This document shows, piece after piece, positions 7,545 through 13,099 of a stretch of DNA of 64,000 nt. This DNA is from an uncultured Pelagibacteraceae bacterium (lineage in GTDB: Bacteria > Pseudomonadota > Alphaproteobacteria > Pelagibacterales > Pelagibacteraceae), in the NCBI GenBank assembly GCA_902519255.1, contig CABYIV010000001.1, positions 124,001 through 188,000 on the forward strand, read 5' to 3'. Positions within the stretch are counted from its first letter, which is position 1, and each line of letters begins with the position of its first letter. The position numbers were made by a program, and so were the translations under genes. Below the pieces are notes generated by a model. That model was not told where the DNA came from. It was given only the letters and a program-made list of their open reading frames with translations, and did not search any database.

Positions 7545-8108
7545 ATGTTTAAATTCCCTTTATTACTTTTTTTATTAATATTGCCAACAAAACTTAGTTC
7601 AGAAATAAATAATGAGTACTATGATAACAATTATTTTCATATTGGAAAAATGAACTCTTACAATAGTGAGTTCACTCTATATTTTAAAACACGGAAGAAA
7701 GCTATTTTAGCAAAGGGAGAATTTTCTAATTATATTAATGATTTTCCACAGGACTTATACTTATATGATAAAAATTTAAATAAAGATTACCCTTTAATTT
7801 CATATGACTGGTTTCCAAAAAAAGTTAAAAAAATATCAAAAAAATATAATTACCCACTTTTCCCAGAGGATTTTGCTTACTATTTATTAAATGACAACAA
7901 CACTTTAATTTTGATAAGTGCAAAAAAAAATTTTAATGAAAATTTAAAATATGACATAAAAAATAATAAGCTAGAAATTGCTAAGACTTCTGGAAAATTA
8001 AATTTTATAATCTCTTCTTATGCTGAAAACTGTGGTTATAAATCTCTAAAAAATAATTTTGAGTGCAATATCTATAAACCTTTAATTTCTAAAAATTTGC
8101 TTAATTAA
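7545..8108 (+). CDS. Unknown exported protein
   Basis: A 187-residue protein starting with a clear signal peptide (about residues 1-19, Lys then a Leu/Phe-rich core ending in a Ser-rich stretch), so it is probably periplasmic. The rest is Lys/Asn/Tyr-rich and predicted mainly beta with many aromatic residues. Two cysteines near the C-terminus (in AENCGYKS and FECNIYKP, 14 residues apart) could form a disulfide after export. I recognise no family. It lies 48 nt after the hydrolase gene and overlaps the 3' end of ftsY on the other strand by 8 nt. Confidence 0.7.
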   Translation: MFKFPLLLFLLILPTKLSSEINNEYYDNNYFHIGKMNSYNSEFTLYFKTRKKAILAKGEFSNYINDFPQDLYLYDKNLNKDYPLISYDWFPKKVKKISKKYNYPLFPEDFAYYLLNDNNTLILISAKKNFNENLKYDIKNNKLEIAKTSGKLNFIISSYAENCGYKSLKNNFECNIYKPLISKNLLN

Positions 8109-9018
8109 CTTGGGTAAAAGCATTTGCAAACTTCTCAGCTTCAAATATTTGTAAGTCATCCTCTTTTTCTCCAAGTCCGAGACCAACAATAGGTACTTTA
8201 TATTTCTTTGAAATCGCAATCAATATTCCACCTTTTGCAGTTCCATCAAGTTTTGTCATTATGATGCCTGTAATTGGAAGTAATTTATTAAATTCTTCGA
8301 GTTGATTAATTATGTTTTGTCCTGACGTTGCATCTAAAACTAAAATAACCTCGTGAGGTGCTGTTTCATCACTTTTTTTAATTACATTTCCTATTTTTTT
8401 TAATTCATCCATTAAATTCTTTTTATTTTGCAATCTTCCTGCCGTGTCTACTATTACTTGATTTATTTTTTGATTTTGAGCTATTTCCATTGCTTTAAAA
8501 GCAACTGAAGCCGGATCTGAACCAGGATCTGATTTTACAATTTTAGCATCAACCCTGTTAGCCCATTCTTCTAATTGATCAATAGCAGCTGCTCTAAATG
8601 TATCGCATGCTGAAAAAAGAACTTTATTATTATTTTGTATAAATATTTTTCCTAATTTTCCAATAGTAGTTGTCTTACCAACTCCATTAACACCTGAAAC
8701 TAATATTATATTTGTCTTTTCCTTTTTTAAAAAAAAATCTTTTTTTTCTAGGGGTGTCATTAGTTCTAAAATATAATTATTAAGTATTTCGAAAACTTCC
8801 TTGATTGGATCATTTTTAGGATCAATCTTTTTTTGAGCAATTATAGATTTTATCTCTGATGCTGCATCTATGCCCACATCTGAGCCGATCAAGAATTCTT
8901 CTATTTTATCAAGAGTTGCATCGTCAATTTCTTTCTTAACTATTATTTCTTTAAGGCCTGATGCTATATTGCTTGCACTTCTTTTAAATCCGATTTTAAA
9001 TTTTTCAAAAATACCCAT
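8101..9018 (-). CDS. ftsY: Signal recognition particle receptor FtsY
   Basis: A 305-residue SRP GTPase that docks the Ffh-ribosome complex at the membrane for co-translational insertion. It begins directly with the N domain; the long acidic A domain of E. coli FtsY is absent, as in many alphaproteobacteria. The P-loop GVNGVGKTT is at 109-117, the insertion-box region CDTFRAAAIDQL at about 138-149, the G3 motif DTAGR at 191-195, and TKLDG near 255. Its start codon shares the last base of dapF, so dapF-ftsY is one unit. The partner gene ffh lies just upstream on the opposite strand. Confidence 0.97.
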   Translation of the reverse strand: MGIFEKFKIGFKRSASNIASGLKEIIVKKEIDDATLDKIEEFLIGSDVGIDAASEIKSIIAQKKIDPKNDPIKEVFEILNNYILELMTPLEKKDFFLKKEKTNIILVSGVNGVGKTTTIGKLGKIFIQNNNKVLFSACDTFRAAAIDQLEEWANRVDAKIVKSDPGSDPASVAFKAMEIAQNQKINQVIVDTAGRLQNKKNLMDELKKIGNVIKKSDETAPHEVILVLDATSGQNIINQLEEFNKLLPITGIIMTKLDGTAKGGILIAISKKYKVPIVGLGLGEKEDDLQIFEAEKFANAFTQVN

Positions 9019-9842
9019 TATATTCTGATATTAATCTTTTCAATTTCAGATACAGGACCTCTCATTTTTATATTTAATTCATTATCAATTTGAATATTTA
9101 AAATTCCTGTTGAAAATTCTATTTTTGAATTACTGTTTTGTAGTTGATTTAAATTAGCTGCGACTGCTGTTGCACATGCTGCAGTCCCGCAAGCTTTTGT
9201 TAAACCTGCGCCCCTCTCCCAAACTTTAATTTTGTAATGTTGATCACTAATTTTCTGAGCTATTGTGACATTGCATTTCTCAGGGAAAACTTCATGATTT
9301 TCTATTAATGGTCCATATTTTTTTAAATTTATTTTTTCTATATCCTCGCAAAAATATACTACATGAGGGTTACCAACATTCACTGCAATACCACCATTCA
9401 TTTTATTTCCGTCAATATCAATCATACCAAGTGATAGATTTTTAGTATCAAGATTTTTACTTAAAGGAATTTTGTTCCACTCTAAATTTGGAGTTCCAAT
9501 TATCGTTTCAACATCTTTATTATTAAGAACTTTAGATTTTAATATTTTTGAGGATACCAAAATTTCAATTTCTTTTTTATTTTTTTCAATACTTAGTAAA
9601 TAAGCAACACATCTAGTTCCATTTCCACATGCATCTGAGCGGCTTCCATCCGAGTTAAAAAAAGCAACATCAGCATCAGCTTTTTGACTTTTGTTTATGT
9701 AGATCAACTGATCGCACCCTATGAAATCTCTGTCACAAATTTTTAAGATTTGGTCATTTGATAAGTTTAAACTATTTATTCTCTGATCAATAATAACAAA
9801 GTCGTTACCTAATCCATCCATTTTAAATGCTTCAAATTCCAT
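9018..9842 (-). CDS. dapF: Diaminopimelate epimerase
   Basis: A 274-residue enzyme that interconverts LL- and meso-diaminopimelate, the last step before lysine and the peptidoglycan cross-link amino acid. The two catalytic cysteines are visible: Cys72 in DACGNGTRC and Cys218 in TKACGTAACA, which act as the acid/base pair. The N-terminal KMDGLGNDFV is the family start. It is transcribed divergently from ffh, with a 159-nt gap holding the ffh promoter and leader, and overlaps ftsY by 1 nt. Confidence 0.97.
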   Translation of the reverse strand: MEFEAFKMDGLGNDFVIIDQRINSLNLSNDQILKICDRDFIGCDQLIYINKSQKADADVAFFNSDGSRSDACGNGTRCVAYLLSIEKNKKEIEILVSSKILKSKVLNNKDVETIIGTPNLEWNKIPLSKNLDTKNLSLGMIDIDGNKMNGGIAVNVGNPHVVYFCEDIEKINLKKYGPLIENHEVFPEKCNVTIAQKISDQHYKIKVWERGAGLTKACGTAACATAVAANLNQLQNSNSKIEFSTGILNIQIDNELNIKMRGPVSEIEKINIRI

Positions 9843-9865
9843 ATAAATAATACTTAACTTATTTA

Positions 9866-9891
9866 TTGACTTTTTGAACCTCTAATATAAT
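9866..9891 (+). promoter_or_regulatory. Candidate promoter for ffh leader and operon
   Basis: A perfect -10 hexamer TATAAT at 9886-9891 follows TTGACT at 9866-9871. The spacing is 14 nt, shorter than the usual 16-18, so the -35 call is less certain than the -10. A start 6-7 nt after the -10 falls at about 9897, on the first base pairs of the structured leader. Confidence 0.55.
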
Positions 9892-9894
9892 TTA

Positions 9895-9996
9895 CGCACA
9901 CTTCCGCAAAATACAGCAATTTGCGGTGTCTTTGGAAACAAAGAGATCGACACCAGTCAGCGAGGGTTCGCCCACTGGTGCGATACTTGCTGTGCG
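9895..9996 (+). promoter_or_regulatory. Structured 5' leader of ffh (Pelagibacter ffh motif)
   Basis: An island of higher GC and dense base pairing between dapF and ffh. CGCACA (9895-9900) pairs with TGTGCG (9991-9996) to close the element 5 nt before the ffh ATG at 10002. Inside are three hairpins: 9904-9910/9920-9926; 9927-9930/9949-9952 extended by 9931-9934/9939-9942 with a GAAA loop; and 9953-9957/9974-9978 extended by 9964-9966/9971-9973 with a TTCG loop. A structured RNA upstream of the SRP protein gene was described in Cand. P. ubique as a probable cis-regulator; this should be that element. The closing stem abuts the start codon and there is no separate Shine-Dalgarno, so control of translation initiation is likely. 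The effector is unknown. Confidence 0.85.
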
Positions 9997-10001
9997 AAAT
10001 T

Positions 10002-11360
10002 ATGTTTGAAAATTTAACTAATAAATTTGAAGAAATTTTTTCTTCATTAAAAAAAGCTCCTTCTCTTGATGAAAAGCAAGTTGACGAGGGTTTAAAAGGT
10101 ATAAGGTTGGCTTTGTTAGAAGCCGATGTTTCATTAGACGTAGTTAAGGAGTTTATTAGTAGAGTTAAGCCCAAAGCGCTAGGTCAGGAAATTATAAGAT
10201 CAACTTCTCCCGGGGATATGGTTGTAAAAATCGTTTATGACGAAATAGTATCTTTTTTAGGTGATAAGAATTCTGAAATCTCCCTTAATGCTGTCCCTCC
10301 AGTTCCAATCATGTTAGTTGGATTGCAAGGTTCAGGAAAAACCACAACAACCTCAAAATTAGCAAAATTTTTAGAAAAAAATAATAAGAAAAAAGTAATG
10401 ATGGCTAGTTTAGACGTTTACAGACCTGCCGCGCAAGAGCAATTGAGACTTTTGGGTGAACAAAATAATATTGAAACTTTGCCAATTATAGAAGGCCAGC
10501 TTCCTGTTGATATTTGTAGAAGAGCATTAAGTGCTGCAAATTTAAATGGTTGTGAAGTAGTTTTATTTGATACTGCTGGAAGAACACAAATAGATTTTCA
10601 AATGATGAATGAAATCAAACAAATTGAAACTATTATTAATCCTGCAGAAACTATACTGGTAGCAGATTCTCTAACAGGTCAAGTTGCTGCTAATGTAGCA
10701 AAGGAATTTAAAAATACAGTAAATTTGAGCGGCATTATACTTACAAGAGCAGATGGAGATGGAAGAGGTGGAGCTGCATTGAGTATGAAATATGTTGCTG
10801 AGGTCCCCATAAAGTTTCTTGGTGTTGGAGAGAAAATTGAGAATTTTGAAGTTTTCCATCCTGATCGAATTGCAAATAGAATTTTGGGAATGGGAGATAT
10901 CGTTTCCTTAGTTGAAAAAGCTTCAGAAGATTTAGATCAAGAAAATTTAAAGAAAACAGAAGAGAAACTTAAAAAAGGTCAATTCTCGATGGAAGATTAT
11001 CTTTCTCAATTACGTCAAATGAAAAAGATGGGTGGAATAGAAGGCATAATGTCATTTCTCCCTGGAGTTTCAAAAATTAAATCACAAATGGACCAATCAG
11101 GAATAGATGAAAAAATTATAACTCAAAATGAAGCTGTTATTTTATCAATGACAAAGCAAGAAAGAGAAAATCCTAAAATTATAAATGGATCAAGAAAAAA
11201 AAGAATTGCTAATGGCTCAGGTACAGACATTGCCACTATCAATAAGTTGTTAAAACAATTTAAAATGATGTCAGAAATGATGAAAAAAATGTCCAAAGGA
11301 AACATGAAAGGAATGGCGGATAAAGGGATCCCGCCTGAACTATTTAATCAATTAAAATAA
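10002..11360 (+). CDS. ffh: Signal recognition particle protein Ffh
   Basis: A 452-residue SRP54 GTPase that binds signal sequences and 4.5S RNA. The start at 10002 (MFENLTNKF) is chosen over an in-frame upstream ATG at 9921 because the latter lies inside the structured leader and would add 27 non-homologous residues. The P-loop GLQGSGKT is at 107-114, DVYRPAAQEQL follows near 138, DTAGR near 188, and the Met-rich M domain begins around residue 300, with methionines in MMSEMMKKM near the C-terminus. It is followed 14 nt later by rpsP. Expression is probably set by the leader RNA. Confidence 0.97.
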   Translation: MFENLTNKFEEIFSSLKKAPSLDEKQVDEGLKGIRLALLEADVSLDVVKEFISRVKPKALGQEIIRSTSPGDMVVKIVYDEIVSFLGDKNSEISLNAVPPVPIMLVGLQGSGKTTTTSKLAKFLEKNNKKKVMMASLDVYRPAAQEQLRLLGEQNNIETLPIIEGQLPVDICRRALSAANLNGCEVVLFDTAGRTQIDFQMMNEIKQIETIINPAETILVADSLTGQVAANVAKEFKNTVNLSGIILTRADGDGRGGAALSMKYVAEVPIKFLGVGEKIENFEVFHPDRIANRILGMGDIVSLVEKASEDLDQENLKKTEEKLKKGQFSMEDYLSQLRQMKKMGGIEGIMSFLPGVSKIKSQMDQSGIDEKIITQNEAVILSMTKQERENPKIINGSRKKRIANGSGTDIATINKLLKQFKMMSEMMKKMSKGNMKGMADKGIPPELFNQLK

Positions 11361-11374
11361 AGGAGATATAAGTA

Positions 11375-11821
11375 ATGTTAAAAATGAGACTATCAATGGG
11401 AGGTACTAAAAAAAGGCCAGTATATAAAATTGTTGTGGCTGATAGTAGATTTCCAAGAGACGGAAGGTTTATAGAAAAATTAGGTTTTTATAATCCGTTA
11501 TTACCGAGGGATAAAAAGGAAAGAATTGGCTTAGATTCAGAGCGAATTAAATATTGGTTAGGTCAAGGAGCTCAGCCAACAACAAGAGTTGCAAGGTTAT
11601 TGGGAGAAAACAATATAATGCCAATGCCTGAAAAAGGAAACAATCCTCAAAAAGCAATTCCTAAAAAAGATAGAAAAAAAGCTGACGAAGGTGGAGAAGC
11701 GAAACCAGAAGGAGATGCATCTAAACCAGCAGAAGCACCTAAGGAAGAAGCTAAGCCAGCAGAAGCACCAAAGGAAGAAGCTAAGCCAGCAGAAGCACCA
11801 AAGGAAGAAGAAAAAAAATAA
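11375..11821 (+). CDS. rpsP: 30S ribosomal protein S16 with long charged tail
   Basis: A 148-residue S16; the conserved part (about residues 1-85, [20 protein letters not shown] onward) is followed by a 60-residue Lys/Glu/Ala/Pro tail. The last part of the tail is a 10-residue unit ([10 protein letters not shown] type) repeated three times. S16 is an assembly protein of the 30S body. An AAGGAGATATAAG Shine-Dalgarno region lies at about 11359-11371. Its stop overlaps the trmD start by 1 nt (TAATG). The usual neighbour rimM is missing between rpsP and trmD. Confidence 0.97.
11723..11812 (+). repeat. Three tandem 30-bp repeats inside rpsP
   Basis: Three nearly identical 30-bp units at 11723-11752, 11753-11782 and 11783-11812 encode the repeated charged tail of S16. 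Units two and three are almost identical; unit one differs at a few bases. A multiple of three keeps the frame, so copy number can change without breaking the gene. Confidence 0.9.
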
Positions 11822-12516
11822 TGTTAGAAGCTCGTATATTCACACTCTATCCAGATTTTTTTCCAGGCTATTTAGGCCAAGGTATTTTTGGTAAAGCACT
11901 ATCAGAGAATAAATGGAAAATAGATACTGTGGATATAAGAGAGTATGCATTTGATAAGCATAAAACTGTTGATGACACTCCTTATGGAGGAGGGGAAGGT
12001 ATGTTAATGAAAGCAGATGTATTAGCAAAATCAATAGATAAGAATGTTAAAGATGGCGAAAAGATTATTTATCTAAGTCCAAAGGGTAAGTTGTTCAATC
12101 ATCAATTAGCAAAACAACTATCTCAAGAAAAAACAATAAATATAATTTGTGGACACTTTGAAGGTGTTGATGAAAGATTGTTAAAAACAAGAAATATTGA
12201 GGAAGTAAGTATAGGAGACTTTGTTTTATCTGGAGGTGAAGGAGCTTCGTTTGTAATTCTTGATGCAATTTTAAGATTTATTCCTGGTATTCTTGGTAAT
12301 ACAAATTCAGCTAAAGAAGAAAGTTTTGAAAACGGACTTTTAGAGTATCCTCAATTTACAAAACCTCAAATATGGGAGGAAAAAAGTGTTCCAGATGTGC
12401 TATTATCAGGCGATCACGCCAAAATTAAAGACTGGCGTTTATCTCAATCTGAGGCTATAACACGCGACCGAAGACCGGATTTGTGGCAATTATATAAAAA
12501 GACTAAAGAGAATTAA
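11821..12516 (+). CDS. trmD: tRNA (guanine-N1)-methyltransferase
   Basis: A 231-residue SPOUT methyltransferase that methylates G37 of tRNAs reading CNN codons and prevents frameshifting. The N-terminal [14 protein letters not shown] is typical, and the knotted SAM-binding region shows [11 protein letters not shown] and [12 protein letters not shown]. The C-terminal helical domain contains [14 protein letters not shown]. Translationally coupled to rpsP by a TAATG overlap and followed after 1 nt by rplS. Confidence 0.97.
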
Positions 12517-12517
12517 A

Positions 12518-13099
12518 ATGAAGACAATTGAAGAAATTAATCAATCTAAAGTAAAAAAAATTATTTCTGAGAGAAAGCATCCAGAATTTTTCCCAGGTGA
12601 TATTGTTAAAGTAGGAGTTAGAATAACTGAAGGAAAAAGAGATCGTATTCAATATTTTGAAGGTGTGTGTATTGCAAAAAAAAATAGAGATATCAATTCT
12701 TCTTTTACTGTAAGAAAAATTTCTTTTGGTGAGGGTGTGGAAAGAACATTTGCTTTATATAGCCCGATTGTAGATACAATTAAAGTAGTAAGGTCAGGAA
12801 AAGTTAGAAGAGCCAAGTTATATTATTTGAGAGATAGAACAGGTAAATCTGCAAGAATTGCAGAAAAAATTAAAAAGAAAATAGGTATAGATGTCGAAAC
12901 TAAGATTCACGAAGTAACAGAAGAAAATGTTATGCCTGATACAGAGCAAAAAACAGCAGACAGCCCACAAGATACCAATAAAGATGCTCCAAAAGTAGAA
13001 GCAAAAAAACCAGAAGATAAAAAAGAAACTAAAGAAGAAACCCTATCAGTAGAAAAAAAAACTGATGAAAAAAAAGAAAATCCTGAAGTAAAAAAATAA
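12518..13099 (+). CDS. rplS: 50S ribosomal protein L19 with extended tail
   Basis: A 193-residue L19. Residues 1-120 hold the family core, including [30 protein letters not shown] and [17 protein letters not shown]-like segments. L19 sits at the 30S-50S interface. Bacterial L19 is usually 115-130 residues; here about 70 extra C-terminal residues are a Lys/Glu/Asp/Thr low-complexity tail. Last gene of the ffh-rpsP-trmD-rplS run, 9 nt before leuC, so leu genes may be read through from it. Confidence 0.97.

Follow-up and report, generated by a model that had tools for sequence, protein, structure and literature searches.

Translational riboswitches and thermosensors alternate between two exclusive folds, one of which lies over the ribosome-binding region. 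Start-site choice is another route to leader-based control, as at E. coli pyrC. Before ffh, the gene for the signal recognition particle (SRP) protein, a single bulged hairpin called the ffh motif was reported in 2009 from SAR11 and several alphaproteobacterial orders (PMC2704228). According to Meyer et al. 2009 (PMC2704228), neither transcriptional nor translational control of Ffh had then been described. In the open literature without supplements, including PMC7717549, PMC5596092, PMC2573895, PMC2881028 and PMC7143759, we found no structure beyond the hairpin for the ffh leader, and a term search of PMC2873474 gave no match. RF01793 also appears in a survey of Mesorhizobium sRNAs, with a match in the intergenic region IGR_Pb, apparently on a plasmid (PMC5596092); such a location would be unusual for an ffh leader.

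The window, meaning the whole 64-kb stretch of DNA that was analysed, contains a single known RNA by Rfam: the ffh motif RF01793 at 9936-9988, with a score of 58.2 bits, above the gathering cut-off of 35. It stands directly before ffh (10002..11360, plus strand, ATG at 10002-10004), which encodes SRP54 N, GTPase and M domains (Pfam SRP54_N, SRP54 and SRP_SPB). The leader occupies the gap between ffh and dapF (9018-9842, minus strand). Within 8101-13099 of the window, ffh, rpsP, trmD and an rplS-like gene (the last recognized by eye) diverge from dapF and from an SRP54-type gene that has the N and GTPase domains but lacks the M domain and is presumably ftsY; with this divergent arrangement the genes for the SRP protein and the SRP receptor flank one short intergenic region. 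The rpsP and trmD genes overlap by one base with no rimM between them (11375-12516), and a search for the rimM domain PF01782 found none in the genome, which is 84% complete. The S16 protein (rpsP, 11375-11821) ends in a long C-terminal tail built of repeated units. SRP RNA is encoded at another place in the genome. Mimicry of 4.5S or SRP RNA by the leader was rejected, as no SRP-family match occurred in the window at the gathering score, nor in 9800-10100 at E values up to 10; inspection by eye for complementarity between the leader's 3′ tail and the genome's SRP RNA gave nothing convincing.

The leader was compared with 202 SAR11 leaders (155 unique) and 47 loci from other alphaproteobacteria. 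All are RF01793 matches, part of the listed matches having been taken, so the motif hairpin (hp3 below) is present in every one by construction and leaders without it lie outside the sample. By taxonomic rank, genomes with a match at E 0.001 or better number 80 of 101 for the genus, 212 of 247 for the family, 52 of 58 for the order and 75 of 289 for those drawn from the class, 59 of the 75 being above the curated cut-off; the four genome sets overlap and many of the genomes are incomplete. Column-wise helix tests used a MAFFT alignment of 50 of the 202 leaders (49 distinct). Swap tests, which compare duplex energies of a leader's own segments with those of swapped segments, used 153 of the 155 unique leaders, two with N being omitted; their clusters were built from leader similarity with the tested segments included, and the statistic ignores kinship between clusters. 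Folding was done on 37 leaders (30 cluster representatives and seven others). The Ffh protein tree has 93 rows, 80 from SAR11 loci with long DNA and 13 others, whose base triplets were read by eye, that of locus L093 included, the other non-SAR11 rows being unlabelled. Outside SAR11, 45 of the 47 loci entered the arm/tail test and 43 were folded as single sequences (L090, L098, L108 and L244 omitted). The features of the leader are as follows.

9866-9871, plus strand: -35 element TTGACT, its TTGAC conserved among relatives.
9888-9893, plus strand: -10 element TAATTT, 16 nt from the -35 element, from aligned hexamers.
9894-9899, plus strand: spacer between the -10 element and the predicted +1, hypervariable by column information, holding most of the 5′ strand of the proposed closing stem.
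9900, plus strand: predicted +1 at A9900, give or take about 2-3 nt, judged by promoter spacing and the edge of conservation.
9900-9919, plus strand: 5′ arm, which in the P1 state pairs 9905-9907 with 9994-9996 and 9913-9919 with 9987-9993, from folding and arm/tail coevolution.
9904-9926, plus strand: hairpin hp1 (9904-9910 with 9920-9926, loop 9911-9919), from covariation.
9924-9949, plus strand: helix P2ext, CGGU 9924-9927 with AUCG 9946-9949, lying below hp2 and excluding the base of hp1, from covariation.
9929-9944, plus strand: hairpin hp2 (9929-9934 with 9939-9944), with a GAAA loop in the window, from covariation.
9951-9980, plus strand: hairpin hp3, the known ffh motif with its CA/CC internal loop, from the RF01793 match at 9936-9988.
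9981-10001, plus strand: tail up to the ATG, from the alignment read by eye.

TTGAC is present in all 202 SAR11 leaders, starting 35-39 nt 5′ of the TTCC of hp1 (which was sought 33-46 nt on), and in 46 of the 47 other alphaproteobacterial loci it lies 70-125 nt upstream of hp3. At least 163 of the 202 leaders have a -10 hexamer that starts with TA (TAGTTT 73, TAATTT 25, TAGGTT 25, TAGCTT 24 and four rarer forms); AAAAAA in 16 and CTTTTA in eight do not fit. A generic promoter scan did not have this promoter in its list, the -10 element being a weak match. Columns 9894-9899 carry 0.11-0.42 bits each; two bases on, those of the TTCC carry 1.8-2.0. Column 9900 is a purine in 146 of the 202 leaders, yet carries just 0.22 bits. 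Transcription of ffh would thus probably start at about A9900, approximately 102 nt 5′ of the ATG.

Comparison of relatives establishes hp1, hp2, hp3 and P2ext as predicted helices. Among the 49 distinct rows, hp1 has 95.3% of its cells paired and 15 double-sided changes where shuffles give 4.0, three of its pairs changing on both sides; hp2 has 98.2% paired, with double-sided changes at all six pairs. In hp3 pairing is 100%, two of the 11 pairs show double-sided changes, and eight of the 11 together with the inner loop never vary. The inner loop consists of CA (9958-9959) and CC (9972-9973), as in the bulged hairpin with two conserved C that defines RF01793; its invariance extends over the 50 aligned leaders, as expected of a protein-binding site. 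P2ext is likewise 100% paired, with 14 double-sided changes where 4.2 occur in shuffles, its first pair being CG in 35 rows and UA in 14; slides by one to three columns pair 0-57%. The RNAalifold consensus pairs CGGU of the hp1 3′ strand with the AUCG that follows hp2, not with the 5′ strand of hp1. An alternative pairing, GGUGUC with GACACC, was rejected, as it appears broken in several clades when alignment listings are read by eye.

The two helices compete for the same bases, since hp1 and P2ext share CGG and both pairings covary. Across the 202 leaders the shared triplet reads G-C-G in 171, A-U-A in 26 and G-U-G in one, an intermediate (L028); in the remaining four (L051, L151, L165 and L199) the 5′ strand of hp1 is changed or ambiguous. 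The first P2ext pair is able to form in all 202. On the Ffh protein tree there are three changes between G-C-G and A-U-A, and all three positions shift together in three of three independent pairs. SAR11 accounts for two of the changes; the triplet behind the third (L093) was read by eye. With three events a sign test gives p=0.25 and is unable to reach 0.05.

The tail before the ATG has, by eye, a U-G-Y-U-G core in most leaders, a Shine-Dalgarno-like GGAAR in many other clades and UGUGCG in the window. The first-pass annotation saw no room for a separate Shine-Dalgarno just before the ffh ATG, and the window's tail has no Shine-Dalgarno-like run; a search of the incomplete genome for the 16S 3′-end pattern gave no match, so Shine-Dalgarno strength was judged by eye. 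In the swap test the 5′ arm fits its own tail better than swapped ones, with p=1e-4 at 30 clusters and p=0.012, 0.001 and 5e-5 at 12, 16 and 65; the first six nucleotides of the arm alone give p=5e-4. Control segments gave no such fit at 30 clusters (hp1 3′ strand, p=0.97; the 20 nt upstream of +1, p=0.97), nor did the hp1 5′ strand alone (p=0.30). Examples of arm and tail are ACUUCC/GGAAGU, UAUUCC/GGAAUA, AAUUCC/GGAAUU, GUUUCC/GGAAGC (one G-U) and UUUUCC/GGAAAA, and in several clades the pairing covers the GGAAR. The fit is uneven: in 10 of the 30 clusters own arm and tail pair no better than swapped ones, and within the four largest clusters p is 0.32 in the window's own clade, where no arm/tail covariation was seen, and 0.03, 0.92 and 0.27 in the other three. 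Treated as a fixed four-column helix in the MAFFT alignment, RYUU/AARY is 65.8% paired against 65.1% in shuffles, and a slide of -2 columns pairs more (73.0%). P1 is supported statistically, as a candidate helix, in aggregate rather than in every clade. As a class-wide feature it is not claimed: outside SAR11 p=0.088 (45 of 47 loci, 23 families). In the single-sequence folds from outside SAR11, the AUC segment has its partners in the 3′ strand of the earlier hairpin in just seven of 43. The tails of L024, L064 and their relatives, a second clade of the genus, hold by eye a small hairpin (GUUAC/GUAAC, AUUAC/GUAAU), which perhaps takes the place of the arm/tail pairing.

Structure in the window's leader is strong, with z scores of -6.5 for 9880-10020 and -4.1 for 9900-10004. 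A transcript from 9900 is predicted to fold with P1, P2ext and hp3 at -38.2 kcal/mol, versus -35.7 with hp1 kept; pair probabilities are 0.54-0.97 for P1 and 0.83-0.94 for P2ext. The 7-bp pairing of 9913-9919 with 9987-9993 is the main part of this P1 and is nested rather than knotted. When the transcript is grown from 9900 (11 lengths), the hp1 state is predicted at 27-60 nt and at 82 nt, 75 nt folds otherwise, and P1 with P2ext prevails from 95 nt (9994) onward. Across the 30 clusters the mean state difference is -0.8 kcal/mol (sd 4.1), P2ext being lower in 16 and the hp1 state in 14; cluster means span -8.8 to +8.4 kcal/mol, so the balance between the states is not conserved.

Our best reading, to which we give roughly one chance in two, is that the SAR11 ffh mRNA opens with a bistable leader, hp1 against P1/P2ext, that controls ffh translation. 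In state A, the putative ON state, hp1, a short hp2 and hp3 would form and the tail before the ATG would be free. In state B, the putative OFF state, CGGU of the hp1 3′ strand would move to AUCG and lengthen hp2; pairing of CGGU with AUCG opens hp1 and frees its 5′ arm. The freed arm would then form P1 with the tail. Together with hp2 and hp3, P1 would close a three- or four-way junction, and it would cover the ribosome-binding region and so may block initiation. A structured leader whose mutually exclusive pairings take in the tail before the ATG, making an on/off switch possible, had been proposed at the outset and is supported here, with partly different partners. The most likely trigger would be Ffh or SRP status, which is the least supported step. 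A wider proposal, which we hold to be rather doubtful, is a hitherto undescribed class of bistable ffh leaders in which hp1 and P1/P2ext swap on SRP status as SRP autoregulation, the fold in this genome perhaps also being set by the start site (9896 or earlier against 9897 or later).

The partners originally proposed were a closing stem of CGCACA (9895-9900) with TGTGCG (9991-9996), which would exchange with or stack on a pseudoknot of the hairpin loop ACAGCAA (9913-9919) with TTGCTGT (9987-9993), the two overlapping at 9991-9993. These letters and coordinates are right, and both pairings are perfectly complementary in this genome. Transcripts starting at 9892-9896 are predicted to fold with the closing stem (P 0.97-1.00) and hp1, whereas starts at 9897-9903 give P1 and P2ext. 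With +1 near A9900, if placed right, the 5′ strand of the closing stem lies mostly outside the RNA, so of the two RNA helices probably half stands. This strand falls mostly in the hypervariable 6-nt spacer after the -10 element, upstream of the predicted +1, and the spacer fits the tail with p=0.24 in the swap test; a further test gave p=0.145 by energy and 0.033 by longest match. Of the SAR11 leaders, 202 in all, one has the exact 6-bp stem and 23 have the exact 7-bp match of loop and tail. By column, the loop/tail pairing equals shuffles (41.0% paired against 41.2%), slides by -1 and +2 columns pair more than the register of 9913-9919 with 9987-9993, and the swap test gives p=0.09 at 30 clusters and 0.03 at 65. 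When the tail was shuffled 20,000 times base by base, the 7-bp loop match had P=0.0056 and the 6-bp spacer match P=0.0066, so that each is above chance singly but modest considering the many pairings that could be chosen. Loss of the loop/tail match with the closing stem kept had been named as an observation that would count against this scheme, and the reverse was seen: among the 22 genomes with the tail TTGCTGTGCG, the 7-bp match is kept in 21, and the closing stem has at least 5 bp in 17 and at most 3 bp in five. On promoter position, variability and the swap test we rejected the closing stem with its upstream strand as a switch partner, and on shuffles and the swap test the loop/tail pseudoknot as a conserved feature; as a whole this model is improbable.

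In a static leader, hp1, hp2 and hp3 would together be a fixed element that binds a protein or serves stability, and CGGU would owe its second partner to a tertiary contact or to a constrained AUCG linker; this reading is unlikely but deserves the most weight among the alternatives. It would accord with the hp1 state being the lower one in 14 of 30 cluster means, with the hp1-like hairpins seen by eye in many non-SAR11 single-sequence folds, and with an hp3 whose inner loop and eight of 11 pairs are invariant in 49 rows, as in a binding site. It does not account for a triplet that stays complementary in both pairings at once, and it gives no role to arm/tail coevolution. The motif has also been recovered in metatranscriptome small-RNA sets (Meyer 2009, PMC2704228), and S. 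meliloti sm5 is a predicted sRNA of approximately 120 nt at dapF/ffh, its Northern column reading "not done" (PMC2573895). A separate small RNA acting in trans, its position before ffh being secondary, would agree with both entries; this is very improbable, given that 9800-10100 has no terminator-like site, that the motif occurs once per genome among the genomes listed with a match, and that a start codon with ffh-like first codons (by pattern only) comes next in 201 of the 202 SAR11 leaders. If the bistable leader is real, covarying bases encode a change of fold in a marine lineage of very high abundance, and a reporter with a handful of paired mutations could put SRP homeostasis there to the test.

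Among known systems, the leader resembles the pyrC type in that a shift of +1 by a nucleotide or two would decide the fold in this genome; the spacer at ffh is not conserved, so start-site control would be local to the clade. With translational riboswitches and thermosensors it shares exclusive folds, one of them predicted to lie over the ribosome-binding region, but it has no known aptamer or ligand and the sequence covered varies among clades. Like autoregulatory leaders of the rpsB-motif type as described in PMC2704228, it is a structured 5′ UTR of a gene for an RNA-binding protein with pairing that reaches a 3′ extension; unlike them, it has no demonstrated protein partner and no SRP RNA family match. 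The closest system is the RF01793 ffh motif itself: hp3 is the motif, the gene and lineages are identical, and a cis-regulatory role has already been proposed (PMC2704228), whereas the ffh section of that paper says nothing of the conserved promoter, of hp1, hp2 and P2ext, or of the arm/tail helix. The Rfam model covers 53 of approximately 102 leader nucleotides with hp3 alone paired, and would thus describe part of the conserved element if the bistable leader is real. The leader belongs to the ffh motif family and has added parts that the published ffh section does not describe (PMC2704228).
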